A DNA stretch of 34,626 nt from Verrucomicrobiota bacterium (GTDB taxonomy: Bacteria; Verrucomicrobiota; Verrucomicrobiia; JABWAM01): the NCBI GenBank assembly GCA_016198745.1, contig JACQHZ010000007.1, forward strand, positions 1 through 34,626, in the 5' to 3' direction. The translations under genes were made by a program, and so were the position numbers. The notes under the pieces were generated by a model. The model saw only the letters and a program-made list of their open reading frames with translations, searched no databases and was not told where the DNA came from. This document shows, piece after piece, positions 243-32,906 of this stretch (within the stretch, counting starts at the first letter, position 1; the number at the start of each line of letters is the position of its first letter).

Positions 243-280
243 CTAGCAGCTTGTCGGACTTACGTCCACCAAGCTGCTAG
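243..280. repeat. Hairpin ctagcagctt ... aagctgctag
   Basis: Perfect 10-bp arms with an 18-nt loop that itself contains ggac/gtcc; overlaps the 3' end of the chimeric ORF 260-628. Confidence 0.7.
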
Positions 281-628
281 TTGGAGTTTTAAATCAACAT
301 GTCCCTGCCATTGCGTTCCAGTTCCCGACGGATCGAAAATGATGTGTTTGCCGGGGCGGCCATACACGAGCACGAGCGTGCCGTCATCAAGGACTTTGCA
401 GACCGGCCAGACTTTGCCCGGGCAGCGGTCTGAATCAATCAACCGCATCGGTTCGGGCGGAGTCCAGGTCTTTCTACCACGCATTGTTTTCTCTTTGCTG
501 GTTTTTGTCATGCAACGGCACGCATCAACGGCGGCAATCACGCTTTTGATTTCCTGGTAAATCACCGGTTGTTTTGCCAAGATGTATTCTTCTCCATTTA
601 AGTGGGAATATATTTCAACAATCTTCAT
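260..628 (-). pseudogene. Chimeric ORF: BglII-type restriction endonuclease-like N-terminus joined to a sialidase/BNR-like fragment
   Basis: N-terminus MKIVEIYSHLNGEEYILAKQPVIYQEIKSVIAAVDACRCMTKTSKEKTMRGRK resembles the N-terminus of BglII-family nucleases; downstream DDGTLVLVYGRPGKHIIFDPSGTGTQWQGHVDL matches SDGTLVCVYGRPGFHMMYDLTGTGEHWRHGLSFD of the 21015-22235 protein. Confidence 0.55.
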
Positions 629-2517: not shown

Positions 2518-2583
2518 ATTCCCCCACCAGGATTTCACTCTCCAAGGTCAAATAAAAGCAAAATCACCTCTTCTTGCCCGTCT

Positions 2584-10953: not shown

Positions 10954-11205
10954 CTTCGCGCCTTTCTCCAGAAGCCATGCGCAGCAATTCTAATTTTGGC
11001 AGTGCTCACTTGACGTTGACCGACACTCCGTGGGGGTGTTTGAGATCAAGGCGGCAGGGCGCTAAAATTGTATTTTTCGCATGATCTGCTGCGGGGAAAA
11101 CAGTCGCCTTTTCTGACCTGCGCATCACCAACAAATTTGTCCTGCACCCACCCCTTGATTTCTGCCGCATTTTTTCCTTGCGCAGATTTTTGATTTCTGC
11201 CATAT

Positions 11206-11219
11206 TCAACACGTGTTGA
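11206..11219. promoter_or_regulatory. Putative operator: perfect palindrome tcaacacgtgttga
   Basis: 14-bp perfect palindrome 20 bp upstream of the likely ATG of the LacI-type regulator. Confidence 0.55.
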
Positions 11220-11239
11220 TTAAAAATAAACACGAGTTG

Positions 11240-12274
11240 ATGCCAGTGGTGAATCAAGCTTCCATTGCTCGGGAATGCGGTGTTTCACGCACGACGGTTG
11301 CGTTTGCGTTCAATGAACGATTGTGTCGAAGAGTTCATCCCCAGACGAGACAACGGATTCTCACCAGTGCCCGGCAATTGGGTTATCAACCGAATCGGGC
11401 AGCCAGAGCGTTGCGGAGCGGAAGATTCAATTCCGTCGGATTGGTCATCGGCGACGTCATGAACATGTTTTACGCCCGGTTTGTGCGCACCTTCGAGCAA
11501 TTACTGGAGGCGCGGGGATACGATCTGGTTGTGGAAGATACGCATGTTTCAATCGAACGAGAAAAGCTTTGTCTGGAGAGAATCCTGGCGCGGCAAGTAG
11601 ATGGACTTTTTTGTTTCGTTCCAGAGAGGACTCCGTACAAGGACTTCTTCGCGAGGCAGTGGTGGGCGAAAAAGCCGGTCGTGGTCATGGGGCCTTGCCG
11701 GGAGGACCTCTTGGTGGATTCCGTTTTCAGTGATTATTCGCGCGGGATCACTCAAGCCGTGGATCACCTGGTAGAATTGGGACACCGCCGGATTGGGTTT
11801 GTCTGCGGGTTGGGCATGACCCAATCAGACGACGGCAGAATTCACTTGGCGCAAGACCGCCTGCGTCAGCGCGGACTCGGCTTTCCCGATCACTATTTGA
11901 TTCAGTGCGGGGCGAGCCTGCAGGATGGGCAAAGAAGCTTCGGCGAGTTTTTGTCGCGCACGCCGAGAGCGGACTGGCCAAGCGCAGTGATCGCCGTCAA
12001 CGATGTGATGGCCATCGGCTTGATGCGGGCAGCATTGGACTGCGGGCTGAAAGTTCCCGAGGCTCTATCCGTCATCGGCGTTGACAACACGCCGATCGCT
12101 GAATGCCTGCCGATCCCATTAACCAGCGTGGACTATCCTCACGACGATGTGGCGCGCCAGGTCATCGAGTTCTTTATCGATCGTGTCAGAGGCGAAGCGT
12201 GGCCGCCGCCGCGGCGGAAAGTGTTCGAGACAAGCCTTGTCGTTCGCAGTTCAACCGCAAAAGCAAAATCCTAG
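11240..12274 (+). CDS. LacI-family transcriptional regulator
   Basis: [24 protein letters not shown]; LacI core ([74 protein letters not shown]). ORF opens at GTG 11213; ATG 11240 preferred. Confidence 0.9.
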
Positions 12275-12284
12275 AGGCGCACGA

Positions 12285-12992
12285 ATGCAAACGAGAACTC
12301 AACGACCATGGCGCCATCGCGCATTCACCCTCATCGAGTTGCTGGTGGTGGTGGCCATCATCAGCATCCTGGCGGCGCTATTGATGCCGGCGCTGAGAAA
12401 TGCCCGGGACCGAGCCAAACAGATTTATTGCATAAATAATCTCAAGCAGTTGGCGGTGGCGGTATTCCTGTATGCCAACGAGGCGGACGGGAAATTTCCA
12501 TTGGTCTGGTACAACGGCGAGGGGCCGTGGGCATGGAAGTTGACCGCTTACGTAAAGAATACGAAGTTGTACAATTGTCCGTCGAATCCGATTCCGTACG
12601 ATGGTTACGGAGCCGCCCCGCCGTGGTGCCTGTCTTATGGACTCAATGCCTGGCTTAATACGTTCGATGGGGGCGGCACGCCGATCGATGGCATTGGGTT
12701 GGCCCAAGTTGCGCGTTCTGCCGAGACGATCATGTTGATTGATCATTATCGGTACGATGCCACTTGCTCCCCGGGGGCGCTGGGATGGATGGACCCGTCG
12801 ATCGTGGACGCCACTGCGCATGGGAACTTGGTGGGATGGTATCCTGCGCTTGCAAGCATTGGGAAAAGGCTGAGAGGATTTGATCTGCACGGCGCAGTCG
12901 GAAACGTGTGTTTTGTGGACGGGCATGTCAGCGCGCTCACTTTTTCCAAGGTCAACGGCGCCGCGCTTGATGAGTCGCTATGGAAACCCTAG
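12285..12992 (+). CDS. Prepilin-like protein with H-X9-DG motif
   Basis: N-terminal [25 protein letters not shown]-terminal [17 protein letters not shown] (H-X9-DG). Confidence 0.9.
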
Positions 12993-13068: not shown

Positions 13069-14079
13069 ATGAAAAAGATTCGGGTCGGGATGATTCGTTG
13101 CGACCTGCACGCGATCTACTATGCCAACGTGATGCAAGAGCATGATCCGCTTGTTCTGCGAGAACCGCAGTGCGGCCTCGGCGGCTATTACTATTTCTAC
13201 AGCCAATGGAACGACCCGAAGAAAATGACCATACCCCATGTGCCCGGTTTTGAGATTGTGAAGGTGTGGGATGCCAACCGATCACAGGCTGAAAACATGA
13301 GACGAATCTACCGCAGCGAGCCAACCGTTTGTGCAACCTTCGAGGATGTGTCCGAGGAGGTGGACCTGGTTCTCATTGCCAACTGCGATCTGGAAGGCGA
13401 CGACCATCTGAAATTGGCCAGTCCAGGCATCCAGCGGGGCGTTCCGACGTTCATTGACAAACCCCTCGCCTGCGATGTGGACGATGCGCGCGCCCTGATT
13501 AGTTTGGCGCAGCAGCACGACGCGCCGGTCTTGTCGCTGTCCATCATGCGGGAGCTGCCGCAGGCAACTCAATTTCGAGATCGGTTTCCCGAACTCAGCC
13601 GTCCCACCTTTGGCATCATCAAAGTGGGCGCGCAACCGCCCAATCGGAACAACGTTGGCTTATATCGCATGTCGGGACTCATTCACGGGATCAGCCTGGC
13701 CCAGCATTTGTTCGGCGCCGGGGTTCAATCTGTCGAAGCCATGGGCGGCAATGAGATGCCTTCGATTGTGCACCTGGATTACGGCGGCGCGCCGGAACGA
13801 CCCGTTGGCGGCGTCGTGATGAATTGCGGCGTGGGACCGACGTTTCATTGCGCCCTCTATGCCAGCGCGTACAGCGAATTGGGTTCGATCCATACGGGGC
13901 ATCTGAGTGATTATGAGTTTCCGTGGGGCGCGGTGAAGATTGTCGAGAAGATCAAGAAGATGGTGGCGACACGCCAGCCGCAGGCGCCTTACGAGGAGAT
14001 GATCGAGTGCATCGCCATCGGCACCGCCGCCCGCAAGTCGCTGGCCGAACGCCGGCGAGTTTACCTCAAGGAAGTCTGA
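13069..14079 (+). CDS. Gfo/Idh/MocA-like protein with atypical N-terminus
   Basis: Overall fold-like pattern and FIDKPLACDVDDARALISLAQQH; N-terminus VGMIRCDLHAIYYANVM lacks GxGxxG. Confidence 0.7.
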   Translation: MKKIRVGMIRCDLHAIYYANVMQEHDPLVLREPQCGLGGYYYFYSQWNDPKKMTIPHVPGFEIVKVWDANRSQAENMRRIYRSEPTVCATFEDVSEEVDLVLIANCDLEGDDHLKLASPGIQRGVPTFIDKPLACDVDDARALISLAQQHDAPVLSLSIMRELPQATQFRDRFPELSRPTFGIIKVGAQPPNRNNVGLYRMSGLIHGISLAQHLFGAGVQSVEAMGGNEMPSIVHLDYGGAPERPVGGVVMNCGVGPTFHCALYASAYSELGSIHTGHLSDYEFPWGAVKIVEKIKKMVATRQPQAPYEEMIECIAIGTAARKSLAERRRVYLKEV

Positions 14080-14100: not shown

Positions 14101-16389
14101 ATGAGCACATCCAAACGAATTGGCCAATTCTGGATTCCGCTGGCTTGGATCGTCGCCACCACGGCGCCCGCCTGCGGCGATCTTGTCATCGCCAAGGACC
14201 GCATGGCCACCAGCGCCATCGTGGTGGGACAAACCCCCTCCGAACCAGAGAAACGCGCGGCAGCAGAACTGCAGCATTATCTACAACAAATATCGGGCGC
14301 CTTGATTCCCGTCTGTGCCGATGGAACCAGCGGGACGGAACGCAGAATCTTGATGGGAACACCCGCTTCAAATCCTGCCATTGCCGGTCTGCTGAAAAAT
14401 CAAACAAAACGACTGTCCGATCTGGGCGAAGAAGGTTTTCTGCTGAAACAAATCGGAACGGACCTGATTATTACGGCAAATTCCGGTCGTGGCGTCTTGT
14501 ACGGGACCTATGACTTTCTGGAAAAAGACCTGGATTGCCGCTGGTATCTGCCAGGCGAGTTGGGGGAGGTGATCCCACAACGGGATACCATCATCCTGGG
14601 GAAGATTGATCGGACCGAGAAACCGTCCTTGCTGCTGCGTAACTTGCACATCGTCGGGGCCCCGGGCCAATACGACCGTACCATTGCCGACTGGATGTCG
14701 CGTAATCGGATCAACGCGAAGAAGACAAACGCCAGTGGGGTCAACGACATTCTGGCGGAGTTGAAGCCCCGGGCAATCGATCCCTACACGGGCGTTCACG
14801 CTTTCGCGTGGTTTGTGCCGGCCCACGAGTACTTTGGCGAGCATCCCGAATACTTTCCGTTGATCCGCGGGCGGCGCGCCAACCCGGGCGCCGCGGCCAT
14901 GGGTTATCAGTTGTGCCTGGCGAATCCCGAGGTTCAACGCATCTTCCTCGATAAAGCGAAGCGGTATTTGGCCAATCATCCCGACGTGCGGTGCTTCGGC
15001 CTCTGTCAGAATGACGGGGATGGCTGGTGCGAATGTGAGAAGTGTCTGGCGATGGGCCGTTCCCCGACGGATCGATATGTAGCGTTCGTGAACATCATCG
15101 CCCGCCAGATCGGCGCGGCCTATCCCGACACGCTGATCCCGATTATGGCCTACGGCCAGGTCACGGACCCACCGTCGGTCCGGCCGCTGGACAACGTCGT
15201 GGCGGATATCTACGCCCAACGCTGTTTCCCGCACCGGTTGGACGACCCGCGGTGTCCGACCAACGTCAAGGTGGTCAAGATCATCCGCGGCTGGCAGGCC
15301 ATGGTCAAGCCACGGCGTCTATTGTGGGGTGATCTGAGCGACGATCCGGAATACCTGCCCCGCTCGACGGCCCGGACGATTTCTCAGGATCTGCGCTGGC
15401 TGGCGTCGGAAAAGATGGCCGGCTTCATCGGTCTCATCATGCCGATTAGCCTGGAGAACATGAAGCTGTACACGTATGCGGTTGCCAGAATGTCTTGGAA
15501 CCCGCAGCGGCGCTACGACGAGCTTCTGGATGAGTTCTGCGCGAAGTACTACGGGAACGCCAGCAGTGAGATGAATCGCTACTTCCGAATTCTGGACGAG
15601 CGGGCCGAGAAACATCCCGATTGCCAACGTTGGGGAACCGCCGCGCAGCACTACTTTAATCTGCTCCCGCCGGCCGTTCTGAAACAATTAGGGGCGCACC
15701 TGGACAAGGCGCAGGTTTTGGCGCGCGGCGACGAAAAGGCCGAACGGCGGGTGGCGGCCGAGAAGAAACTCTACCGGCAATATGTGGACTATCTCACCGC
15801 GATCGCAGGCAGGGACGACATTGAAGAAGGCGTCCAGCAGGGTAAGATCAGCAATCTGGTTGCCAATGCGGGATTTGAAAACTGGCCCGCCACGATGAAA
15901 CCAATCACGGGAAAACAATCCGCGCAACCCGATCGACATCCGCAGGAGATACTGCTGGAGCAGGGTTGGACGAACGAATGGATCCGCGATACGAACGAGG
16001 GAACGGGGACGTTTGACATCGTTGAAGGCGCGGCTCCTGAAGGCAACAAATACATCCGAATCACCTGCGCCAATGACAAGAGCTACCTGCGGATCATGCA
16101 GGTGGTGAAGCTTAAAAAGGGCCACACGTATTACTTCAGTGTCCGCGTGAAGGCCGACGAAGGCGTTAGCGGCCCGATCTGGTTGAATCAGGATCATCCC
16201 GCCGGCCTGGACAAGATCGCTTGGTATTCATCGACGCGCGGGAATTGGCAAAAGGTCGTGATCCCCGAATTCACTGCCGCGCGAGACACCGGGACGATCA
16301 TTCTCGAGAACCGTTTCCCCAAGCTCTTTCCCGGCAGCGTCAGCTTTGAAGATGTCATATTCGTTGACGTGACGGAAATGGAGAAATGA
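14101..16389 (+). CDS. Exported DUF4838-type protein with C-terminal CBM-like domain (paralog 1)
   Basis: Signal peptide; alpha-glucuronidase-like N-terminus (EKRAAAELQHYLQQISG); LCQNDGDGWCECEKC; C-terminal NLVANAGFE...YYFSVRVKADEGVSGPIWLNQD. Confidence 0.85.
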   Translation: MSTSKRIGQFWIPLAWIVATTAPACGDLVIAKDRMATSAIVVGQTPSEPEKRAAAELQHYLQQISGALIPVCADGTSGTERRILMGTPASNPAIAGLLKNQTKRLSDLGEEGFLLKQIGTDLIITANSGRGVLYGTYDFLEKDLDCRWYLPGELGEVIPQRDTIILGKIDRTEKPSLLLRNLHIVGAPGQYDRTIADWMSRNRINAKKTNASGVNDILAELKPRAIDPYTGVHAFAWFVPAHEYFGEHPEYFPLIRGRRANPGAAAMGYQLCLANPEVQRIFLDKAKRYLANHPDVRCFGLCQNDGDGWCECEKCLAMGRSPTDRYVAFVNIIARQIGAAYPDTLIPIMAYGQVTDPPSVRPLDNVVADIYAQRCFPHRLDDPRCPTNVKVVKIIRGWQAMVKPRRLLWGDLSDDPEYLPRSTARTISQDLRWLASEKMAGFIGLIMPISLENMKLYTYAVARMSWNPQRRYDELLDEFCAKYYGNASSEMNRYFRILDERAEKHPDCQRWGTAAQHYFNLLPPAVLKQLGAHLDKAQVLARGDEKAERRVAAEKKLYRQYVDYLTAIAGRDDIEEGVQQGKISNLVANAGFENWPATMKPITGKQSAQPDRHPQEILLEQGWTNEWIRDTNEGTGTFDIVEGAAPEGNKYIRITCANDKSYLRIMQVVKLKKGHTYYFSVRVKADEGVSGPIWLNQDHPAGLDKIAWYSSTRGNWQKVVIPEFTAARDTGTIILENRFPKLFPGSVSFEDVIFVDVTEMEK

Positions 16390-18590
16390 ATCCACCAAGC
16401 AAAACAATTTGTGGAATTAGGGCGATCATGGCCCCGGCGTTGATGGTCATCGCCCCGTTTTGCGCGTGCGCGCAACAGGTTGTCATCGCCAGGGACGGCG
16501 TTTCATCTTGTGTCATCGTCCTTGGTAAAACTCCCTCGTCGGTTGAGCAGCGGGCCGCTGTCGAACTCCGGCATTATCTGCGCAAAATATCCGGCGTTGA
16601 GATTCCAATTTCTTCCGACGCGGCACACAGAATCGTTTTGGGAACTCCGAATTCAAATCCGGCCATCAACGAGATGCTGAAAGGCCAAACCAAGATGCTG
16701 ACCAACCTGGGTGACGAAGGTTTTCTGCTGAAGACCATCGGAATGGACCTCGTGATCACCGGAAATTCCGGTGATGCAGTCCTCCACGGTGTTTATGGTT
16801 TCCTGGAAAAATACCTGGGGTGCCGTTGGTTTGCGAAGGGAGAGTTGGGCGAGGCCATTCCAAAGCGCAACAACATTATCCTCCAGGATGTGGATCACAC
16901 GGAAAAGCCGGCCATGCGATTGCGCAACATCCATATGTGCGGGCCGGGGCATTACGACGAGGCGTTTGCGGATTGGATGTCGCGGAACAAGATGAACGCC
17001 AAGACCACGCACCATAGCAACGTGGGCGACATCATCGGCGCCTTGAAGGCCAGAGGGATCAAACCCGACACGAGCGTTCATTCGTTCGCGTGGTACGTGC
17101 CCGCAAGCGAGTATTTTGCCAGTCACCCCGAATACTTCATCCTGTTCAAAGGCAAACGCGCGCCGGGAACGATGGGCTATCAGCTTTGTCTCTCGAATCC
17201 GGAGGTGATTCGCATCTTCATCGAGAAGTCGAAGCAGTACCTGGCCTCGCATCCGTACTTGGACGCCGTCGGCATCGGCCAGAACGATGGCGGCGGCTGG
17301 TGCGAATGCGACCAATGCAACCCGATGGGCAAGTCGCCGGCGGATCGGTTGGTCGTGTTTGTCAACGCCGTGGCCGAGGGAATCGGGAAGGCCTGCCCCG
17401 GCAAGCTTGTCGCCATGATGGCTTATGGCGATTGCAACGAACCGCCCCGCGTCAGCGGGGTCAAACTGCGCGCCAACGTGCGCGTCGATTTGTATGCGAA
17501 CCGGTGTTACACGCACGCGCTCAACGATCCCAAGTGCAAGCTCAACGTGAAGGCGATGGAAAAGATCAACGGCTGGCTCGCGGTGGTTGGGCCGGAGCGT
17601 TTGGTGTGGGGCGATATGAGTGATGATCCCGAATTTTTGCCCTGTCCCAAAGGCAGGACGATTGCGGAAGACCTGCGGTGGATGGCGAACAAGCGGATGG
17701 CCGGTTTCATCGGCGCGACCATGCCCGAATGGTGGGAAAACATGAAGTTGTACTATTGCGCGGCGGCCAGGGCGAGTTGGGATCCGTCGGTGAGCTACGA
17801 CACGATCCTGGATGACTTCTGCGCCAGGTACTACGGCGGGGCCGGGGGCGAAATGAAAAAGTATTTTCTGTCCCTGGAGGAACGAAGCCGGAAAACGCCC
17901 GATTGCGAGCGCTGGGGAACTGCCGGCCAATACTATTCCGATCTGTTTCCTTCCATCGTTCTCAGGGAATTGGCAGGACGCTTGGACAAAGCACAAGCGC
18001 TGGCGCGCGGTGACGAACAGGCCGAACAGCGGGTGGCGGCTGAGCAGGGGCTGTGCCGACGCTACACACAGCATCTCATCGCCATCGCCGGCAGGGAAGA
18101 TATTGAGAAGGCGGTTGCGAAAGGGCGCATCGCCAATCTGATTGTGAATCCGGGATTTGAAACCGGGCTGGAGGACCCGTGGGGAGCTGAACGGCACGAA
18201 GGGGCGGGGAAATTCGATATCGAAGATGAAGGCGCGCCTGAGGGAAAGCAATTCATCCGGATCACCTGCGCGGACGACAAAAGCTATCTGCGAGTGGCGC
18301 AACAGGACATCCCGGTCAAGAAAGGACATCGGTATTATTTCAGCGTGTGGGTCAAGGCCGATGAAGGTGTCAGCGGCCCGATCTGGCTTAATCAGGATCA
18401 CCATGCCGGTCTCGACAAGATCGCGGGGTACACCGATACCCGCGGAAAATGGCAGAAGGTCGTCATCCCTGAGTTCATCGCAGCCAGGGATAAGATGACC
18501 ATCTTTCTGGAAAATCGGTACCCGAAGAAATATCCCGGCAGCGTGTGTTTCGACAATGTCATATTCGTGGATTTGGAAACTGTGAAATGA
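16386..18590 (+). CDS. Exported DUF4838-type protein (paralog 2)
   Basis: ATGA overlap with the preceding gene; same domain order; IGQNDGGGWCECDQC, ATMPEWWENMKLYY. Confidence 0.85.
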   Translation: MNPPSKTICGIRAIMAPALMVIAPFCACAQQVVIARDGVSSCVIVLGKTPSSVEQRAAVELRHYLRKISGVEIPISSDAAHRIVLGTPNSNPAINEMLKGQTKMLTNLGDEGFLLKTIGMDLVITGNSGDAVLHGVYGFLEKYLGCRWFAKGELGEAIPKRNNIILQDVDHTEKPAMRLRNIHMCGPGHYDEAFADWMSRNKMNAKTTHHSNVGDIIGALKARGIKPDTSVHSFAWYVPASEYFASHPEYFILFKGKRAPGTMGYQLCLSNPEVIRIFIEKSKQYLASHPYLDAVGIGQNDGGGWCECDQCNPMGKSPADRLVVFVNAVAEGIGKACPGKLVAMMAYGDCNEPPRVSGVKLRANVRVDLYANRCYTHALNDPKCKLNVKAMEKINGWLAVVGPERLVWGDMSDDPEFLPCPKGRTIAEDLRWMANKRMAGFIGATMPEWWENMKLYYCAAARASWDPSVSYDTILDDFCARYYGGAGGEMKKYFLSLEERSRKTPDCERWGTAGQYYSDLFPSIVLRELAGRLDKAQALARGDEQAEQRVAAEQGLCRRYTQHLIAIAGREDIEKAVAKGRIANLIVNPGFETGLEDPWGAERHEGAGKFDIEDEGAPEGKQFIRITCADDKSYLRVAQQDIPVKKGHRYYFSVWVKADEGVSGPIWLNQDHHAGLDKIAGYTDTRGKWQKVVIPEFIAARDKMTIFLENRYPKKYPGSVCFDNVIFVDLETVK

Positions 18591-18600
18591 GGATCTCAAG

Positions 18601-20886
18601 ATGAACCAACTGAAAGTGATCAGCAGATGTTTGATGGCGACCGCCGTGAGCTTGGCGATAGCGGGTCCGGCCGCGGCGGAAACGGAAGGACTCGCAATCA
18701 CAAAGGGCGGCAAACCCGCCACCGTGATCGTCGCGGGGAGAAACCCGTCTGCGCCTGAGAAACGCGCCGCCCAGGAGCTTCAACACTATCTCCAGAAAAT
18801 ATCGGGCGCTCAAATTCCGATCGCCGAGGACAACAAGGGCGCTGGAGAACCGCACATCCTTCTCGGAACCCCGACCGCCCATCCCTTGATCGCCGATGTC
18901 TTGAAAGATCAGGCAACGAGGCTGGCTGGTCTGGGTGATGAAGGTTTTCTGCTTATGAGCGTGGGGAACAATGTGGTGATTACCGGAAACTCCGGCGATG
19001 CAGTCCTCCACGGAGTTTACGGGTTGCTCGAAAAGCATCTGGGCTGCCGCTGGTACGCGAAAGGGGAGACAGGCGAAGTCATTCCGAAGCAGAACAGCAT
19101 CGTCCTGCGGAATGTGGATCATACGGAAAAGCCGGCCATGCGCTTTCGCAACATCCACATGTGCGGCCCCGGTCACTACGACGAGGCCTTTGCCGATTGG
19201 ATGTCCCGCAACAAGATGAATAACAAGACGACCCAAACGAGCAACGTGGACGATATTATCGGCGCGCTCAAACCGCGAGCGATCAAGCCTGACACGGAGG
19301 CGCACAACTTTAGCTGGTACGTGCCCCCGGCCAAATACTATGCCGAACATCCCGAGTACTACGCGCTGATGTACGGCAAACGGTTCGACCCGCGCTCCGG
19401 CATGGGCGTCCAGCTTTGCCTCTCCAATCCCGACGTGGCGCGGATCGTCATTGAGAAGGCGAAAGAATTCCTGGCTGCTCACCCGTACGTGGAGGTGATG
19501 GGCGTGACACCCGATGACGGCGGCGGACGGTGCGAGTGCGACAACTGCATGGCGATGGGCAAGTCGCATACGGATTGGTTGACGGTGTTTGTCAACAAGG
19601 TGGCCGAGGAAATCGGGAAGACTTATCCCGACAAACTGGTCGGCCTGTTCGCGTATGCCGAATGCCACAAACCGCCTTCGATCAAGCCCCGGCCCAACGT
19701 CCGTGTTTCGTTGTATGTGAACCGCTGTTGGACGCATGCGCTGAACGACCCCCAATGCAAGCTGAACGCCAACGCGAAAAAAATACTCAACGGCTGGCTG
19801 GCCAAGGTCAGGCCCGAGCGGTTGGTGTGGGGCGACATGAGCGACGATCCCGAATTTCTTCCGCGCCCCAAAGGCCGCGCGATTGCCAACGACCTTCAAT
19901 GGATGGCGCAGCAAGGCATCAACGGCTACATCGGCGCGACGATTCCCGAATGGTGGGAGAACATGAAGCTGTATTACTACGCCCTGGCTAGGGCGACATG
20001 GAATCCCAAGGTCAACTACGACGCCATTCTGGACGAATTCTGCACTGAGTATTACGGCCCGGCGGGCGCCGAAATGAAGAAGTATTTCCTGGCCCTGGAA
20101 GAACGCGCCCGGAAATTCCCCGATTGCGAGCGATGGGGGATTGCTACTCAGTATGACAGTGACTTGCTTCCCGAAGCCGTGCTCGCCGCGTTGGGGTCTC
20201 ATTTGACAAAGGCAGAAACACTCGTTGCCGGCCACAAAGAGGTCGAGCAACGGGTTGCCGCCGAGAGAAATCTCTACCAGCGCTGTGCGCGGCATATGGA
20301 GGCCATTGCCAAAAAGGAAGAATTTGAGCGAACTGTGGAGAAAGGCGCGGCTGTTAACTTGATCGCCAATCCCGGCTTCGAGGAAGGTCTCTCGAACAAA
20401 GGGTTTCCGATGGAGAAAATCGACCGAGACCCGTTGGATGCGCTGATCGAAGATGGACTGACGAACCAATGGATTCAGGACACCCATGAAGGCAACGGTT
20501 CTTTCGGGATTGAAAGAACCGGAGCGTACGAGGGGAAAAATGCGTTCAAGATGACGGGTGCAGACAACAAGAGTTATCTGAGAGTCCTGCAGGCCGTTAA
20601 AGTGAAGAAGGGCCGCAAGTATTACTTCAGCGTCCAGGTGAAAGCCGATGAAGGCGTCAGCGGCCCGATCTGGCTGCATCAGGACGCGCCCGGTCAGAAT
20701 GACAAGCTCACCGGCTACTCCTCGACGCGCGGCAACTGGCAAAAAGCGGTCATCCCGGATTACACCGCCGTCCGCGATGAAGTTCTCATCATCCTGGAAA
20801 GCCGTTATCCGCAGAGCCAGCCCGGTCGCGTGTATTTCGACGACGTGAAGTTGTTGGACATCACGGAGCTGCAAGGTGCGAGATAA
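18601..20886 (+). CDS. Exported DUF4838-type protein (paralog 3)
   Basis: Starts 10 bp after paralog 2; same domain order; VTPDDGGGRCECDNC, ATIPEWWENMKLYY. Confidence 0.85.
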   Translation: MNQLKVISRCLMATAVSLAIAGPAAAETEGLAITKGGKPATVIVAGRNPSAPEKRAAQELQHYLQKISGAQIPIAEDNKGAGEPHILLGTPTAHPLIADVLKDQATRLAGLGDEGFLLMSVGNNVVITGNSGDAVLHGVYGLLEKHLGCRWYAKGETGEVIPKQNSIVLRNVDHTEKPAMRFRNIHMCGPGHYDEAFADWMSRNKMNNKTTQTSNVDDIIGALKPRAIKPDTEAHNFSWYVPPAKYYAEHPEYYALMYGKRFDPRSGMGVQLCLSNPDVARIVIEKAKEFLAAHPYVEVMGVTPDDGGGRCECDNCMAMGKSHTDWLTVFVNKVAEEIGKTYPDKLVGLFAYAECHKPPSIKPRPNVRVSLYVNRCWTHALNDPQCKLNANAKKILNGWLAKVRPERLVWGDMSDDPEFLPRPKGRAIANDLQWMAQQGINGYIGATIPEWWENMKLYYYALARATWNPKVNYDAILDEFCTEYYGPAGAEMKKYFLALEERARKFPDCERWGIATQYDSDLLPEAVLAALGSHLTKAETLVAGHKEVEQRVAAERNLYQRCARHMEAIAKKEEFERTVEKGAAVNLIANPGFEEGLSNKGFPMEKIDRDPLDALIEDGLTNQWIQDTHEGNGSFGIERTGAYEGKNAFKMTGADNKSYLRVLQAVKVKKGRKYYFSVQVKADEGVSGPIWLHQDAPGQNDKLTGYSSTRGNWQKAVIPDYTAVRDEVLIILESRYPQSQPGRVYFDDVKLLDITELQGAR

Positions 20887-21014: not shown

Positions 21015-22235
21015 ATGAACAAGCCTTTCAAATTATCTTCGATCACTTCCATCGCCCAAATCCAGCATGGTATGCGGCGCTATCCCACGCTCTACATGCT
21101 GCCGAACGGCGACTGGCTTGTCCCGTGTCATTGGGAAGCGGACACGCACTTCGCGAGACGCATGTTCCTGCGTTCCACCGATCATGGGCAAACGTGGCGC
21201 GATGAAGATGCGCCGGTGCCGCGTGAGAACGGATTGATCGCTCTCCGCAACGGCGAGGTCTTGGCGTTCGACAATTACCCGATGCTGAAGCAAGACGACG
21301 AGTACATTGTCGGCGCGTCCTGGTCAAAGGACGGCGGACGCAGTTTCGGTCCGATGGAATTGGCGACGATCCATGCGCCGGATGCCGAGCCATGGTCGCT
21401 TCAGGAAATGATGTCCTGCTGCTGGACGACTGCGCCCGAGGATTGGACGCCCATCTTCGAAGCCGCCGGCCACCGGAATTGGCGGGCGAATTTTTCGGAG
21501 CGCATCCGCAAGATCATGATCGGCGGCCCGCCGCCCTCGCGCGCGGCGCTGGAGCGCGAGGACGGGAGCATTGTCGCCTTGAACTGGTATCATCCCAAGG
21601 GACAAAAGCGCGTGCCGGGCCTGTTTGTTCTCGAATCGCGCGACCGCGGTCGATCGTGGCGACAGATCGCCTTGGTTGTTTCAGGAGATGGTTTGAGTGA
21701 ACCTTCGCTGGCGCAACTCGACAACGGTGATCTGCTCGCGCTGAACCGAACGGGCGGGCCGCTGCTGCAAGCGCGTTCTTCCGATGGCGGTTTCACGTGG
21801 AGCAAGCCTCAACCCGTCCGCTTCGCTGAGGAATTCAAGATGCGCGACACGACGCCGTACTTCTCCCACCTGGTTCAGCGAATGCGCCAGGATGGCGCAG
21901 AGAAATTCGCCTGTGGCGTCGCGCCCGACATGATTCGCATGAGCGATGGGACATTGGTCTGCGTCTATGGGAGACCGGGTTTTCACATGATGTACGATCT
22001 CACGGGCACCGGTGAGCATTGGCGACACGGGCTGTCGTTTGATGAAATCGAGTTTGATCTTTGCCGGCGCAACGGCTCGCCATGCTGCGATTTTGGCTCG
22101 ACCGGCTACATGGGAGTACAGGAAGTCGCACCCGGCGAATTGGCAGTTGTGTACGACCTCCAGAACTGGACCGAGTCGCGCGGCAAACCGCGGATGCGCT
22201 GGACGATTCGCTGCGCGCGGTTAACTCGGCGCTAA
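21015..22235 (+). CDS. Sialidase/BNR-repeat-like protein
   Basis: Asp-box-like repeats (STDHGQTWRDE, SRDRGRSWRQI, SSDGGFTWSKP); no evident signal peptide; ATG at 21015 preferred over the upstream TTG. Confidence 0.8.
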   Translation: MNKPFKLSSITSIAQIQHGMRRYPTLYMLPNGDWLVPCHWEADTHFARRMFLRSTDHGQTWRDEDAPVPRENGLIALRNGEVLAFDNYPMLKQDDEYIVGASWSKDGGRSFGPMELATIHAPDAEPWSLQEMMSCCWTTAPEDWTPIFEAAGHRNWRANFSERIRKIMIGGPPPSRAALEREDGSIVALNWYHPKGQKRVPGLFVLESRDRGRSWRQIALVVSGDGLSEPSLAQLDNGDLLALNRTGGPLLQARSSDGGFTWSKPQPVRFAEEFKMRDTTPYFSHLVQRMRQDGAEKFACGVAPDMIRMSDGTLVCVYGRPGFHMMYDLTGTGEHWRHGLSFDEIEFDLCRRNGSPCCDFGSTGYMGVQEVAPGELAVVYDLQNWTESRGKPRMRWTIRCARLTRR

Positions 22236-22273: not shown

Positions 22274-24148
22274 ATGAACGCGACTCCGCTCCCCGCGCGC
22301 CTCGGCTCGTATTATCAGACGATTGTGCCTGACACGTTGGACCTCGCGGAACGCGCCCGGCTCAGCCTCAACCATCTCACCTCCGTCATCCGTGAAGAGC
22401 AGGATTACGAGATGGGTTGGGTCGGCGTTTTCGAGTCGCTCGGCGAAGCATTCCGCGATCTGCCCCGGCCTGCGATCACTCTGCGCTGCTGTCCGCTTCA
22501 GGCCTGTCAGCCCAAGTGCATGGAAGCAATGGCCATGGCGCGGATCATGAGCGGCAGCCGGCAGAACCTGGAGCGTGAAATCAAGATGGTCGAGATGCTT
22601 GCCTCACACGTCGGTGACGAAGGCATCTATTGGGTGCCGGCATACGACAACAAACCGTGGCTCGGCCCAGTCGAATTTCGGCCGCACGCGTCCGTGCACG
22701 GACAGGCCCGGATGATGCGCGCGATGGTTGCTTGGCATCAGTACACAGGCGATCCTGCTTGGAAAGAACGGATCGATCGGATGGTGGATGGCATGGATCG
22801 CCTGCTGGTGGTTCATAAAAATGGCTACGCTTACTTCCCCATCCACGGCTGGATGGGCGAGGAATATTTCAGTTCGTGCTACGTGAAAGATCGCGGCTGG
22901 AAAGACACCGCCGAACCGATGGATGAGAAGTCCGGGGAGGAAGGCTCGTTGTTCAACCACCAGGGGCACACGCCCGGCGTACTGGCGAATTGGCACTTGA
23001 TGACAGGCAACAAACAAGCGCTGCGTCTGGCCGGCGAGTTGGTGCGGTTCCTCACCAAGCCGAAATTCTGGGCGGATTGGAAGAGTGGCGACTACCCCGG
23101 CGTCATCGGCGCGGAGCACGCCCATTGGCATGGGCATTTTTACGGCCACATCAATACGCTGACGGCCATTCTCGAATACGCCATCGCGACGAACGACGCG
23201 CAGCTCAAGACGTTTGTGCGCGACGGTTACGAATGGGCGCGCCAGCCCTGGTTGGTCGCGCGCCTCGGCCTGGGCGCAAATGGCCAGGGCTGCGCGATCC
23301 CCCGGATGATCGGGCTGGCGATCAAGCTTTCCGATGCCGGTGTTGGTGATTATTGGGAAGACGTTGACCTGTACATCCGCAATCACGGCACGGAAATGCA
23401 ATACACGCCCGAAGACATCCCCTACTTGCGCAGCCTGGGCGAAAGAAAACTTTCGCCGGAACAAATCTCGCGTTTGCCTTTTTCTCCGCATGCGGTTGCG
23501 ACCACGGAGCGTGTGATCGAGGCAAGCATCGGCGCGTTCGCCATGAACCCGTTCAAGTTCGCTTGGGCGCTGTGTTGTAGCCCTTGGGGCGCCATGGGAC
23601 TTTTCTACGCCTGGGAAGCGGCGTTGCGCTATGCCCAGGGAGTCGCTTGCGTCAACCTCCTTCTCAACCGCGCCTCTCCATGGCTGGACGTTGACAGTTA
23701 TCTGCCTTACGATGGCAAAGTCGTGCTCAAGAACAAGACCGCGAAAGAGGCTTTCGTGCGGTTGCCGTTATGGGTTGAAAAGAAGGATGTCGGTTGCCAT
23801 GTCGGCGGCAAGGCGGTAGCGCCTGAATGGTTTGGCTGTTACCTGCGAATTGAGGATTTGAAGGCCGGAGACATTGTGACCATGGAGTTCCCGGTGCTGG
23901 AGAGAACGGAACGATGGACGACCGATGAGACGCTGTCCCCTGAGATGCCAGGGTGGCCCGGCCGAGTCGCCCGCAACTACAAGTTCAAGGGCAACACCCT
24001 GGTCGAAATCTCTCCGCCAGTTCCGACCTGGCCGTTGGCGAAGGGAAACTGGTGGTTGTATCAAGGCCGTGCCCACAGATATTGCGCCGGCAAAGCGCCG
24101 ATGAACGAAGTGACCCGGTTTGTCACGCCCTTCGGCCTGAAGTGGTAA
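22274..24148 (+). CDS. Glycosyl hydrolase-like protein (six-hairpin type, GH127-like)
   Basis: MNATPLPARLGSYYQT...; (alpha/alpha)6-like pattern (HASVHGQARMMRAMVAWHQYTGD, GHTPGVLANWHLMTGN) followed by beta-domain-like tail; ATG 22274 in frame. Confidence 0.65.
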   Translation: MNATPLPARLGSYYQTIVPDTLDLAERARLSLNHLTSVIREEQDYEMGWVGVFESLGEAFRDLPRPAITLRCCPLQACQPKCMEAMAMARIMSGSRQNLEREIKMVEMLASHVGDEGIYWVPAYDNKPWLGPVEFRPHASVHGQARMMRAMVAWHQYTGDPAWKERIDRMVDGMDRLLVVHKNGYAYFPIHGWMGEEYFSSCYVKDRGWKDTAEPMDEKSGEEGSLFNHQGHTPGVLANWHLMTGNKQALRLAGELVRFLTKPKFWADWKSGDYPGVIGAEHAHWHGHFYGHINTLTAILEYAIATNDAQLKTFVRDGYEWARQPWLVARLGLGANGQGCAIPRMIGLAIKLSDAGVGDYWEDVDLYIRNHGTEMQYTPEDIPYLRSLGERKLSPEQISRLPFSPHAVATTERVIEASIGAFAMNPFKFAWALCCSPWGAMGLFYAWEAALRYAQGVACVNLLLNRASPWLDVDSYLPYDGKVVLKNKTAKEAFVRLPLWVEKKDVGCHVGGKAVAPEWFGCYLRIEDLKAGDIVTMEFPVLERTERWTTDETLSPEMPGWPGRVARNYKFKGNTLVEISPPVPTWPLAKGNWWLYQGRAHRYCAGKAPMNEVTRFVTPFGLKW

Positions 24149-24183: not shown

Positions 24184-25380
24184 ATGACCGTCAATTCGTT
24201 GCTGGCAGCTTCGGTTCCGTCGGAATTCCTCTGGCTGCAGGAAAAAGTTCGCCGCTTGATCGAGGCCGCCCGTTTCGTTGGTGAAGCCGGCGTCTCCATG
24301 TATTATCCGGCGCCCAGCGGAAACCTGTATCCGTCCTGCTATTTGCGGGACTTCACTTATCTGGTCGAGTCGGTCCCTGAGTTCATTCCACCGGGCCACA
24401 CCCGCGCAATACTCGAATTGTTTCTGAGGAATTGCCGCGCAGACGGGCTGTGCCCGGAAAAGATTCTTCCCAGTGGACAGCCGACCTATGTCTGTCACGG
24501 CGCGCGGCCGGCAGCCGACAGCGGATTGTTCCTTGTAAAGCTGTTCCACGCGCACCTCAAGCAAACGAACGATCCGGAGTTTCTTCGGCTGCATTTCGAC
24601 AGCTTGTTGGCGTCGCTGCGCGCAGTGCCGACGGAACCGGAGACGGGACTGGTCTGGATTGACCCTGGCCGCCCACACACCGGATACGGCTTCACCGACA
24701 CGATCTCCAAAACCGGCCGCGAATTGTTCTGCTCACTGCTGCTTTTTGAGTCGTTCTCAATCCTTTGCGCTCTGGCAACGTCCATCGGTTGTCACGACGA
24801 TTCGGCGGTGTGCAAAGCGCAGGCGGAAAACTTGCAGCGCAGCTTGGATTCGCTTTGGTTTGAGCGCGACGGGATGTTCTACGCTGCCTCGGCGGACTGC
24901 CGGCAACTCGATGTCTGGGGGTCGCTTTACGCATGCATGGTGGGCGCCGTTGACGCACCGCGCGCGCGCCGTATCGGTGACTGGTTCGAGGCGAACCGCG
25001 ACCGCGTGCTATACCGAGGTTGTCTCCGTCACCTTCCTGCGCCGGAACACTGGAACCGCCTGATTCTGGCCGACGCCTCACCGCCCGGAACATTTCAAAA
25101 TGGCGCCTACTGGTCCACCCCGACCGGCTGGTACGCGGAGATGCTTGAGTCGCGTGAGGCCGGAAGCGGATTGAAGTTGCTGCGAAAGTTGGTTGCAGAA
25201 TTCCAGAAGCACGGCATCTGGGAGTGTATTGGACCCAACGGATACTATCGGCTGGAAAACAATCTTTCTTCAATTGTCTTGCCGTATCGATCGTTCAAGA
25301 CAATCCTGGGCAGAAGAGGAGAACGGCAACAAGCGAAGCCTGCAACACGGACCGTGGAGCGGGAGGAGGCGGAACGATGA
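24184..25380 (+). CDS. Six-hairpin glycosidase-like protein
   Basis: MTVNSLLAASVPSEFLWLQEKVRR; GYGFTDTISKTGRELFCSLLLFESF, GTFQNGAYWSTPTGWYAEML resemble six-hairpin glycosidases. Confidence 0.6.
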   Translation: MTVNSLLAASVPSEFLWLQEKVRRLIEAARFVGEAGVSMYYPAPSGNLYPSCYLRDFTYLVESVPEFIPPGHTRAILELFLRNCRADGLCPEKILPSGQPTYVCHGARPAADSGLFLVKLFHAHLKQTNDPEFLRLHFDSLLASLRAVPTEPETGLVWIDPGRPHTGYGFTDTISKTGRELFCSLLLFESFSILCALATSIGCHDDSAVCKAQAENLQRSLDSLWFERDGMFYAASADCRQLDVWGSLYACMVGAVDAPRARRIGDWFEANRDRVLYRGCLRHLPAPEHWNRLILADASPPGTFQNGAYWSTPTGWYAEMLESREAGSGLKLLRKLVAEFQKHGIWECIGPNGYYRLENNLSSIVLPYRSFKTILGRRGERQQAKPATRTVEREEAER

Positions 25381-27074
25381 TCTACATCTCCGATATGCGC
25401 CAATGCCGACCGATCGCCAGGTTTTCGGAGAAACCCACCAGAAACCGCTGGCGCATCATCCCTTACGAGACGACCGATCCGCATTTGAAAGACGGCCAGA
25501 TGATCGGCGCCGCCTCGTATGTGGATGCGCCGGAGGTGCGGCTTCCACTGCGCCTTTCGGGTTGGCACGCAGTTTACGTGGGCTATTGGAACCCGTACCA
25601 CGCTTATGATGGCGGCCTGATTCTGAAGTGCAAACTCAGCGGCGACCCATGTTTTGTCCGTCTGCATGAACCAACGGCGGATCCAGACCAATATGTTACC
25701 TGCCTGAGAGAGGCATTCGTAACGACGGCTGATCTGACCGGGCGAGATCTGGTATTCGGGAAGGTGCGCGGTCCGTTCGGGCAGAAAGCGTATCTCGCCT
25801 ACGTGAAACTCGTGCCGCTCACCTCCGAGGAGATCGCCGCCGTGAAAGCCGACCGCGCTCGGAAAGATGCAAGGATCGTGCAAGTGACCATAGATGGCGC
25901 GAGTTTTATGGCCGGCAACGAGTACACGACCAAGGAGCATATCTTGGAACTGGTCGAACGGTATCGCTACTCGGATGTGGGCAAGGTGATCTGGGCCGTT
26001 ATGTATGGTGACGTGACCAGTTACCCTTCAAGGATTGCAACCTTTAACGGCGCCAAGCCCATCGTGCCGATCAGGAGCATCAGCGCGGCAGTTCCGTATG
26101 CCGCCTATTGTAAAGTGGCATACGCGAGCATACGAAAGCTGACCTCCAAAGGCATTATTCCCGCGGCCGTGGCCGCCCGGCGCGTTCATCAGATGGGGCT
26201 GAAATTCGACATCATGTGTCGCCTCGGAATCACGGGCGGCAGCCTTCCGCCGATGGACCAGGGAACACCCAAGAAGTTCTTGCCATCGCACCCGGAATAC
26301 CGCCAGGTCTTGGCGGACGGTGCGGCGATAGACAAAGCCAGCTATGCTTTCTCCGAGGTCCGCCGCTATGCGCTGTCCATCATACGCGAGGCGGCGGAGA
26401 CTTTTGATTGCGACGGCGTGAATCTGGCCTTTGTGCGCGGACCTTACTTTGTGATGTACGAGAAACCCGTGCTCGATGCTTTTCATAAGGAATACGGAAA
26501 AGATGCGCGCAGCATGCCGCTTGACGATCCTCGGCTGATCGCTGTGCGATGCCGCTTCCTCACCGGGTTTGTCCGCGCTGCGCGCCGGGCGCTTGATGAA
26601 GTCGGCGCGAAGAAGCGCAAGAGAATCGCCATGTCCGCATACGTGTTTTTTGAGACGCAGTCCAATCTCAAATTCGGCATCGACGCGGCATCATGGATGA
26701 AGGAGGGATTGCTGGACAGCATCATCTGTCAGCAGGGGAAAACAGACCACCGCCTGATCGCCGCCGCCAAGACAAGTCATTGCAAGTTCATCAGTCAGCC
26801 ATCGGGCGGCGACTTCGTCAAAAGCTGCCACGCGAGTTACGAGGCCGGTGCGGATGGGGTAGCCGTGTGGGATGCGGACCATGTTCAGGACCAGCCCCCG
26901 CGATGGGCGGTTTTCAGCAGGGCCGGTCACAAAGACGAGCTTCAGAGAAGTGAGGATGAGCATTCGTTTCGCGCCGGCAACGCGCCTGAGTTGAGCAGGA
27001 CCATTCGGTTAAAAACGGTTGGCGGCATCGATGTGTTCCAAGGTCTGTGGCATGCGGCTTTCTCGTGCGGTTGA
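25377..27074 (+). CDS. Hypothetical protein, putative TIM-barrel glycosidase
   Basis: ATGA overlap with the preceding gene; TFDCDGVNLAFVRGPYFVMYEKPVLDAFHKEYGKDAR resembles GHL-type TIM barrels. Confidence 0.6.
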   Translation: MIYISDMRQCRPIARFSEKPTRNRWRIIPYETTDPHLKDGQMIGAASYVDAPEVRLPLRLSGWHAVYVGYWNPYHAYDGGLILKCKLSGDPCFVRLHEPTADPDQYVTCLREAFVTTADLTGRDLVFGKVRGPFGQKAYLAYVKLVPLTSEEIAAVKADRARKDARIVQVTIDGASFMAGNEYTTKEHILELVERYRYSDVGKVIWAVMYGDVTSYPSRIATFNGAKPIVPIRSISAAVPYAAYCKVAYASIRKLTSKGIIPAAVAARRVHQMGLKFDIMCRLGITGGSLPPMDQGTPKKFLPSHPEYRQVLADGAAIDKASYAFSEVRRYALSIIREAAETFDCDGVNLAFVRGPYFVMYEKPVLDAFHKEYGKDARSMPLDDPRLIAVRCRFLTGFVRAARRALDEVGAKKRKRIAMSAYVFFETQSNLKFGIDAASWMKEGLLDSIICQQGKTDHRLIAAAKTSHCKFISQPSGGDFVKSCHASYEAGADGVAVWDADHVQDQPPRWAVFSRAGHKDELQRSEDEHSFRAGNAPELSRTIRLKTVGGIDVFQGLWHAAFSCG

Positions 27075-27270: not shown

Positions 27271-28464
27271 TCAAGAATGTTTTTGAAAGGTAAAATCCAG
27301 CGCCTGGCCTTTCCGGAGCGACTCGACGGCCCGCAGGGCAAGCTGCGTGGCCAGCGCGCCGGCGCGGCCATCGGCGTTTTCGGGGCGCCTGCCTTCCAGG
27401 AAACATCGCGCAAAATGTTCGAGGGATTCGACCCAACCTTTGTCGGGAACGAGGCTGCTGGCGTAATCGGTTTCGCGCTTGAAAGGATTCGGGCCGAAAT
27501 CGCGGCCGGGCCGGCGCACCTGCTCGAAACCCATGCTCCACTGCTTCACGGTTTTTTCGACGTCGCAGGCCCGGCACACTTCGTAATAATCAAATCCATG
27601 CCGGCCGATTCCGGCCGCCTGCTCGCCAAGATGGCACGCGCAGGCTTCGTCGAATTCGCCGGGAAAACCGCGCACGCGCAGGTCCACGAAGTCGCTGATG
27701 GTGACCGCCTTTGTTTCGCAAAAGATTTCCAGATACTCCTTCCACAACAGGCAACTCCCGAGTCTTCCCAACAGGAAGGACGCGCGACTGCCTCCGGGGA
27801 AATCCAGCGCCAGCAGGTTGTTTTTGAACGGGTCGCCGGTCATATAAACGCGCGTCGGCTCGCTTTCCAAGAGCCAGCAAAGGAAATCCAGAATGTGGGT
27901 CCCTTCGTAAAGCATGTGCGGTTTGTTCTCGTAGTAGCCCTGGCTGTACTCGCTCGGCACCGGCCACATCATGCGGTAGTTGACGAAAAACGGCGGGCGC
28001 TGCGTTTGGATCAACCGCTTGGCGCGTTGATAGGCGGGCGCGAAACGGCGATTGAACCCGATGGCCAGTTTGCCCGTTGCGCGCGCTTCGGCGGCGAGCA
28101 CCGCGGCCGTTTCCGCTTGGGTTTCGGCCATGGGTTTTTCGCAGAGCACCCACTTGCCGGAATCGAGCGCCTCGACAATCAAGCGGGCGTGCAAGTCCTG
28201 CTTCGTTCCAATGATGACGATGTCCGCATCGGGATCGGCGAGGATGCGGCGATAATCCTTCGTCACGTAGCGCGGATGATATCGGGCTTCATGTTGAGCG
28301 AGCCGTTGATCGTCAAGGTCGCAAATGGCGTGGACCGTCATGATCTTGCTGTGACCGGCGATGTGCAGGTGATGGGCGGTGATGAATCCGCCCGCGCCGA
28401 TGAAGGCAACGCGCACTTTATGGGTCTTCTTTGCAGTTGTCGTGCGATTTGGAAATTGCATCAT
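27271..28464 (-). CDS. Gfo/Idh/MocA family oxidoreductase
   Basis: VRVAFIGAGGFITAHHLHIAG, WVLCEKPMAET, GTHILDFLCWLL. Confidence 0.9.
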   Translation of the reverse strand: MMQFPNRTTTAKKTHKVRVAFIGAGGFITAHHLHIAGHSKIMTVHAICDLDDQRLAQHEARYHPRYVTKDYRRILADPDADIVIIGTKQDLHARLIVEALDSGKWVLCEKPMAETQAETAAVLAAEARATGKLAIGFNRRFAPAYQRAKRLIQTQRPPFFVNYRMMWPVPSEYSQGYYENKPHMLYEGTHILDFLCWLLESEPTRVYMTGDPFKNNLLALDFPGGSRASFLLGRLGSCLLWKEYLEIFCETKAVTISDFVDLRVRGFPGEFDEACACHLGEQAAGIGRHGFDYYEVCRACDVEKTVKQWSMGFEQVRRPGRDFGPNPFKRETDYASSLVPDKGWVESLEHFARCFLEGRRPENADGRAGALATQLALRAVESLRKGQALDFTFQKHS

Positions 28465-31944: not shown

Positions 31945-32017
31945 TAATGAGATTCAAGGTCAACAACGCGCCAACGAACAGGCAAACCAGACCAACCGTT
32001 ATGGGTTTGGGCGTCAT
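31685..32017 (-). pseudogene. ORF with one TM helix running into the MITE-like element
   Basis: MTPKPITVGLVCLFVGALLTLNLI is host-encoded; the rest (RVPPETQNGRAKGGYG...) is element sequence. ATG overlaps the pseudopilin stop (TGATG). Confidence 0.6.
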
Positions 32018-32754
32018 CAGTCCGCCTTGCTCTCATCGACGCTCTCGGCGATGAAGGCATAAGCGCCATCCGTTCTTCCTTGCTTGCCGACCAAATCAGA
32101 CCTGGCCAGCGCCGCCACATGGCCATCGCCAAAAAGGAAATTCCCTTTGCCATGATGTCGGAGGTGCACAGAATTGGCGGGCGGACCCGCGTTATACGCC
32201 AGGAAAAAGTACCGCTGTTTACGGACCTCGTTGGGGTCCGCCCAATTATTGAGCACACTGTCGCCCAGCAGCAGGAAACCGGCGGGAGGACCGAAATCGT
32301 TGTTTTCTGCGTCCACCACGGCGGCGCTGCCAATGTTGTACTTGCTGTCATACATCTGTTGCAGACTGCCGGTTGACAGGATCCGCATGCCGTAGGCGTG
32401 GGCTGCGGAACCGTCCCAAATGCGCGGTGATTGCGCAGGACATAGAAACACGGTTGCCTGTCCCACTTGCGGCGCGGGCAGATAACCGATTGCAAGCAAC
32501 TCGTTCCACGTCTTGTTGCTGGGTGGGTTGAGTGCCGACGGCGTCCATCCTTCATAATCATTGGCATAGAGATGACAGGCGGCGCCGATCTGCTTCAAAT
32601 TGTTCATGCAGACAGTGCTCCGGGCGGAATCCCGGGCGATTTTAAGCCCCGGCATCAGCAGCGCCGCCAGAATGCTGATAATGGCCACGACGACGATCAA
32701 TTCGATCATGGTGAATGCTTCCCTGAAAAAGCGGAGCAAGGGAAATCCAACCAT
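32017..32754 (-). CDS. Prepilin-like protein with H-X9-DG motif
   Basis: [44 protein letters not shown] 32754 preferred, ORF open to 32850. Confidence 0.85.
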   Translation of the reverse strand: MVGFPLLRFFREAFTMIELIVVVAIISILAALLMPGLKIARDSARSTVCMNNLKQIGAACHLYANDYEGWTPSALNPPSNKTWNELLAIGYLPAPQVGQATVFLCPAQSPRIWDGSAAHAYGMRILSTGSLQQMYDSKYNIGSAAVVDAENNDFGPPAGFLLLGDSVLNNWADPNEVRKQRYFFLAYNAGPPANSVHLRHHGKGNFLFGDGHVAALARSDLVGKQGRTDGAYAFIAESVDESKAD

Positions 32755-32906
32755 GGGGCAGCCTTTTTGCACGGCCAGAATATGGCTCAGCCGCCCGCTC
32801 TTCCAAAGCGCTTTTTGACGCCCAAGGTCAGAAAACTGCCTATATCGCAACCATGTCTTGACCGTTTGAAGACTCGTCTATAGCGTAGGCCGCAGAGGGC
32901 CACTCG

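Follow-up and report, generated by a model that had tools for sequence, protein, structure and literature searches.

A tandem trio of DUF4838 genes

The window, which is the whole stretch of DNA analysed (34,626 nucleotides), makes up contig C118 of a draft genome of 6.43 Mb, which comprises 522 contigs and is 74% complete. Its source is probably an uncultured Verrucomicrobiota bacterium. It carries a gene cluster with a LacI-family regulator at its head, and three adjacent genes of this cluster are the subject of this report. D1 (14101-16389, + strand), D2 (16386-18590, + strand), and D3 (18601-20886, + strand) encode putatively exported proteins of 762, 734, and 761 amino acids, respectively. 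An ATGA at 16386-16389 is common to the end of D1 and the start of D2, and D2 and D3 are separated by 10 bp. Pairwise protein identity is 59% for D1/D2, 51% for D1/D3, and 61% for D2/D3, a likeness far above chance level. Pfam DUF4838 (PF16126) was found in all three proteins with E-values of 1e-45 to 1e-53 and 156-183 bits against a curated cut-off of 26.6, and Glyco_hydro_67N was found with E-values of 1e-7 to 1e-11. CBM_4_9 passed its cut-off in D2 (E 6e-11), and D1 and D3, with 25.5 bits each, fell just short of the required 25.9. Each protein probably combines a TIM barrel and a helical domain with a GH67N-like alpha/beta domain and a CBM4/9-like jelly roll. By inspection, the N-termini carry hydrophobic stretches of the signal-peptide type with AxA-like ends, which supports the export of D1-D3.

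The original prediction had described three full-length DUF4838-type paralogs in tandem, with signal peptides, an ATGA overlap of the first two genes, and membership of one operon. This description was borne out by the exact open reading frames (ORFs) and coordinates, by the N-termini as inspected, and by the operon-like spacing of the cluster, in which all genes lie on the + strand and are separated by anything from 4-bp overlaps to gaps of ~130 bp. Two long antisense ORFs that run across D2 and D3 (16653-18722 and 18559-20874) were rejected as shadow ORFs.

A tree of the catalytic region of 112 proteins was built with a quick method and with Shimodaira-Hasegawa-like approximate likelihood ratio test (SH-aLRT) support, without bootstrap. 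The trio formed a single clade on a long stem (SH-aLRT 99%), with D2 and D3 grouped inside it (97%), and the deeper placement of the clade was not settled by this tree. The ratio of nonsynonymous to synonymous substitution rates (Ka/Ks) among D1-D3 is 0.16-0.22, with synonymous sites near or at saturation. The near saturation suggests that the duplication is old, and the low Ka/Ks suggests that purifying selection acts on each of the three copies. These findings point to D1-D3 as the product of an old tandem triplication in place, retained under purifying selection.

The CBM-like C-terminal ends had been called nearly identical, which is true of a motif of ~22 residues within a CBM-like domain and does not extend to the whole C-terminal domain, where D1-D3 are 58-72% identical. 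The proportion of synonymous differences (pS) in this domain is 0.70-0.78, which means that synonymous sites are saturated; recent gene conversion of the C-terminal ends is thereby ruled out, and the near-identical motif is best explained by constraint at the protein level. The barrels of D2 and D3 are 69% identical in amino acids and 73% in nucleotides, closer than the flanks of the same two genes, and this similarity could reflect an older gene conversion.

Of 22 genomes searched for DUF4838, half had no match. In four members of the same family the search gave 8-16 match rows each, and in the source genome it gave 51 rows, which correspond to ~46 genes. Two or three DUF4838 genes lie close together on each of the contigs C161, C299, C414, and C37, and the trio is one tandem array among many in this genome. 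A comparable triplet was found in an Armatimonadetes metagenome-assembled genome (L082, 7315-14475), where three adjacent DUF4838 genes also form their own clade (100%). Unlike the trio, this triplet has the canonical WDY motif, arose by an independent triplication, and lies among other neighbours; only a LacI-like gene, on the opposite strand in L082, and a pseudopilin gene nearby are common to both loci. Because several arrays occur in the source genome and the L082 triplet is independent, tandem arrays appear to be a habit of the DUF4838 family.

A scan of genome contigs with the profile of a 10-member alignment found the best relatives of the trio at 33-37% identity, and a D2 match at E 1e-70 or better was absent from all 387 other genomes sampled from the phylum. 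In these scans, the trio appears as a private branch of DUF4838 that was not found outside the source genome. As a separate observation, MttB-like (trimethylamine-methyltransferase-like) genes recur near DUF4838 genes, at 1102-2538 (-) in the window, L140:8323-9744 (-), and L130:1336-3009 (-), and one of them is a single ORF with a URO-D-like domain.

Predicted fold and active site

D3 was modelled with AlphaFold2 from a 68-sequence alignment, and the model has a predicted local distance difference test score (pLDDT) of 82 and a predicted template modelling score (pTM) of 0.78. Its top Foldseek matches in the PDB are GH115, GH84, GH20, and GH67 enzymes, so the resemblance to GH67/GH20-like TIM barrels that the original prediction had thought worth checking is present in the model. 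In a profile search of solved sequences, GH67 aligned over two separate stretches, and most of the match to GH115, GH84, and GH20 fell within the N-terminal domain. A search of the PDB with the single D3 protein gave chance matches only.

The presence of GH115 and GH67 among the best fold and profile matches bears on the possibility that the trio are GH67/GH115-like enzymes that act on uronic acids, in which case the new Asp 412 past strand 7 would be the base of an inverting mechanism. The acidic residues of the WGD[ML]SDDPE loop around this position are invariant in the trio, as such a mechanism would have it. However, identity to GH115 and GH67 is 10-14%, with a large root-mean-square deviation over the full length, and no GH67 or GH115 catalytic Pfam model matched the trio, in which the GH67 N-terminal domain was the only such match. 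The fold itself, a GH67N-like domain followed by a TIM barrel, is also common to GH84 and GH20 and is hence unspecific. Action on uronic acids is considered very unlikely.

Conserved and altered positions were sought among 65 DUF4838 relatives from many phyla, which had been picked for their likeness to the trio and a few homologs. Residue positions (D3 numbering) were placed by predicted secondary structure only. Asp306, which lies just past barrel strand 4, His235, and Cys 311/313/316 are invariant in the 65 relatives and the trio. The strand-4 motif is QND in D1 and D2 and PDD in D3. In GH20 and GH84, the catalytic pair is located past barrel strand 4. The invariant Asp (D306 in D3) probably acts as the acid/base. 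In the same genome, a clear GH20 hexosaminidase gene directly adjoins a DUF4838 gene (L136, 2944-5082 (-) and 5091-8126 (-)), an adjacency that is in line with hexosaminidase-type chemistry.

Other positions set the trio apart. Tyr412 in strand 7 is present in 65 of 65 relatives and is replaced by Asp in D1, D2, and D3, where it lies in an acidic loop found only in the trio, WGD[ML]SDDPE[FY]LP. Cys372 in strand 6, present in 94% of relatives, is Tyr in the trio, and the loop past strand 8 is shorter than in the relatives. The idea that the trio has lost a catalytic Glu of the strand-8 EQG motif was abandoned, as this Glu is not conserved among the relatives. Divergent DUF4838 paralogs of the source genome also vary at several of these active-site positions. 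Since this is so, and since the relatives were picked by similarity, the comparison demonstrates that the active site has changed but not that the reaction has.

To our knowledge, GH163 has few characterised members. A Polaribacter DUF4838 protein is labelled GH163 (PMC9870897), BT_1035 is given as GH163 (PMC12834350), and the GH163 of B. thetaiotaomicron is an endo-enzyme on the GlcNAc-beta-1,2-Man (N-acetylglucosamine-mannose) bond of complex N-glycans (PMC10154615). These reports contradict the earlier view that DUF4838 has no well-established substrate. As a DUF4838 finding, the trio belongs to a known, partly characterised family, and what is new is the private branch with its altered active site. 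Its membership of GH163 is putative and is based on the common Pfam domain DUF4838.

The GH163 label and the QND/PDD motif past strand 4, at the site where general knowledge places the catalytic pair of GH20 and GH84, would suit true GH163 endo-beta-N-acetylglucosaminidases that cleave N-glycan-like GlcNAc linkages by substrate-assisted catalysis. This explanation is unlikely, since the strand-7 Tyr of all relatives is Asp in all three proteins, the strand-8 loop is shortened, and ~46 very diverse family genes in one genome are ill-suited to a single N-glycan bond. The replacement of an invariant Tyr by Asp within an acidic loop also means that GH163 specificity is not transferable to the trio.

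The differences among the three proteins raise another possibility, namely that one or more of them, D1 above all, is a non-catalytic glycan-binding helper of the others. D1 is without the first Glu of the PEWWEN motif, which is kept in D2 and D3, and all three proteins have a CBM4/9-like domain that would serve binding. In contrast, the strand-4 QND and the invariant His and Cys are retained in D1, and Ka/Ks values between D1 and the other two are no higher than that between D2 and D3. A helper role is regarded as quite unlikely.

Neighbouring genes and regulator-pseudopilin pairs

The LacI-family regulator at the head of the cluster (11240-12274, + strand; Pfam LacI and Peripla_BP_3) has a likely ATG at 11240, and its longest ORF runs from 11213. 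A prepilin-type N_methyl/DUF1559 pseudopilin-like protein (12285-12992, + strand; Pfam N_methyl and SBP_bac_10) starts 11 bp past the LacI stop and is followed by a Gfo/Idh/MocA-family oxidoreductase (13069-14079, + strand; Pfam GFO_IDH_MocA), which has no signal peptide by inspection. The palindrome TATTCAACAC/GTGTTGATTA, an inverted repeat assigned to neither strand, lies at 11203-11222 and flanks the perfect 14-mer TCAACACGTGTTGA (11206-11219); an imperfect second copy with 2 mismatches (11227-11240, + strand) lies at the likely LacI ATG. The window holds 2 palindrome matches against 0.09 expected, and the exact 14-mer had no other occurrence in the 6.4 Mb assembly. An operator common to LacI clusters is ruled out by this uniqueness. 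Lying just 5' of the likely LacI start, the palindrome is a likely candidate operator through which the local LacI protein would control its own gene.

The four genes downstream of D3 show no obvious signal peptide by inspection. The first (21015-22235, + strand) encodes a BNR_2 beta-propeller-like protein (Pfam BNR_2, E 1.7e-16) that had been proposed to be sialidase-like. The proposal was not borne out as to function, since solved sialidases matched in short stretches only, at E 5e-5 or worse, and the protein appears sialidase-like in fold family only. A separate observation concerns an ORF at 260-628 (-) in the window, where the stretch 302-412 shares 51% identity with the C-terminal region of this BNR protein; it resembles a gene remnant, or a truncated gene, close to the contig end. 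Two six-hairpin-like proteins had also been proposed, of which one stands: the protein at 22274-24148 (+ strand) appears to be a remote relative of GH127 beta-L-arabinofuranosidases, with a sub-threshold Pfam GH127 match and an E-value of 1.6e-4 to solved GH127 with a five-member profile. The second, a possible (alpha/alpha)6 protein at 24184-25380 (+ strand), has a sub-threshold GDE_C hint only (E 0.29). The last gene (25377-27074, + strand) encodes a GHL10-like protein slightly under the Pfam GHL10 cut-off (E 1.8e-5), and its ATG overlaps the preceding stop (ATGA).

A second regulator cassette faces the LacI-headed cluster. It comprises a regulator (32907-34121, + strand), a pseudopilin (32017-32850, - strand), an exported-looking protein (29231-31663, - strand), and an oxidoreductase (27271-28464, - strand). 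The window itself therefore holds two regulator-pseudopilin pairs (11240-12992 and 32017-34121), and the pairing recurs across the source genome, in which at least 147 Peripla_BP_3 regulators and at least 150 N_methyl proteins were counted (150 of 301 candidates scored). Among the matches listed, an N_methyl match lies within 700 bp downstream on the same strand for 47 of the 147 regulators, against ~1.3 expected from density, and on the upstream side for 0 of 147. In a genome of the same family (G002), 15 of 20 regulators are followed by a pseudopilin, as taken from listed coordinates, against ~0.1 expected. DUF4838 genes show a related association, as an N_methyl match lies no more than 2.5 kb upstream of 12 of the 46 (1.3 expected) and a LacI-type match lies within 5 kb of 12 of the 46 (2.6 expected). 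The expected values presume an even spread over the genome and ignore operon clustering, so that they exaggerate the contrast for DUF4838. For the regulator-pseudopilin pairs, the excess is so great that operon clustering makes no difference.

At four loci that were read, a single ORF of 558-611 amino acids encodes both a prepilin-type pseudopilin and a regulator that binds DNA and senses sugars (L184:247-2082, L185:452-2281, L187:520-2196, and L188:1025-2779 (-)), and similar fusions are indicated by frame length only on contig C28 of the source genome and C33 of the same-family genome. A simple explanation is the loss of stop codons between neighbouring genes. Cleavage of such a fusion by prepilin peptidase would free the regulator part. 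No description of the regulator-pseudopilin pairing was found in a literature search of open-licence papers, and the pairing is more surprising than the trio itself.

Proposed function and related enzymes

Taken as a whole, the probable explanation is that D1-D3 are exported hydrolases of the DUF4838/GH163 superfamily with altered specificity, which act on one glycan and belong to a LacI-controlled cluster. The three enzymes would probably act on related linkages or decorations of a single extracellular glycan, and because their active sites do not follow the consensus of the family, the target is probably other than the N-glycan bond known for GH163. The private LacI regulator probably keeps the cluster repressed as long as a product sugar is absent. 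Processing of the released products would be completed by the proteins that are not exported, namely the BNR, six-hairpin, GHL10-like, and oxidoreductase proteins.

Several results weigh against this explanation. The departures of the trio at positions 412 and 372 and in the strand-8 loop make a lost or changed activity possible, above all in D1, and neither the profile search nor Foldseek returned a solved DUF4838/GH163 structure among its PDB matches. None of the genes of the cluster was recognised as encoding a transporter. The gene set did not recur in 80 loci around related DUF4838 genes, where the commonest common neighbour was a weak oxidoreductase match. The protein at 24184-25380 has a 50% identical relative in another genome, and the surroundings of two inspected relatives hold nothing recognisable in common with the cluster. 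Since no other locus inspected carried this gene set, comparison gives no evidence for a common pathway or substrate, and the argument for co-function is one of gene spacing.

A broader idea is offered tentatively. This bacterial family may possess dozens of cassettes, each specific for one substrate and the present cluster among them, that produce a sugar-sensing regulator of the LacI/GntR type along with its own prepilin-type pseudopilin, the two being fused in some cases. Sugar sensing would then deploy a dedicated surface or secretion fibre together with exported hydrolases, D1-D3 for example, and the trio would represent a new specificity that goes with its rebuilt active site. The pairing is a testable hint as to how these uncultured bacteria link glycan sensing to glycan capture or secretion. 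Given the ~46 diverse DUF4838 genes in one genome, the tandem trio with its common altered active site is also a compact set for questions about specificity change.

Among known systems, the GH163/DUF4838 family, of which BT_1035 of Bacteroides thetaiotaomicron is the characterised member, shares with the trio the DUF4838 domain, the strand-4 Asp, and the C-x-C-x-x-C cluster seen in the 65 relatives, while the low identity to the nearest relatives, the replaced strand-7 Tyr, and the shorter strand-8 loop separate the two. The GH67/GH115 alpha-glucuronidases have the same GH67N-like N-terminal domain and TIM-barrel fold, but they are distant in sequence. The GH84 O-GlcNAcases and GH20 beta-hexosaminidases have no Pfam match in the trio and are 9-15% identical over fold alignments, yet they have the same arrangement of N-terminal domain and barrel, and the ND or DD pair of the trio past strand 4 resembles the DD pair of GH84 and the DE pair of GH20.

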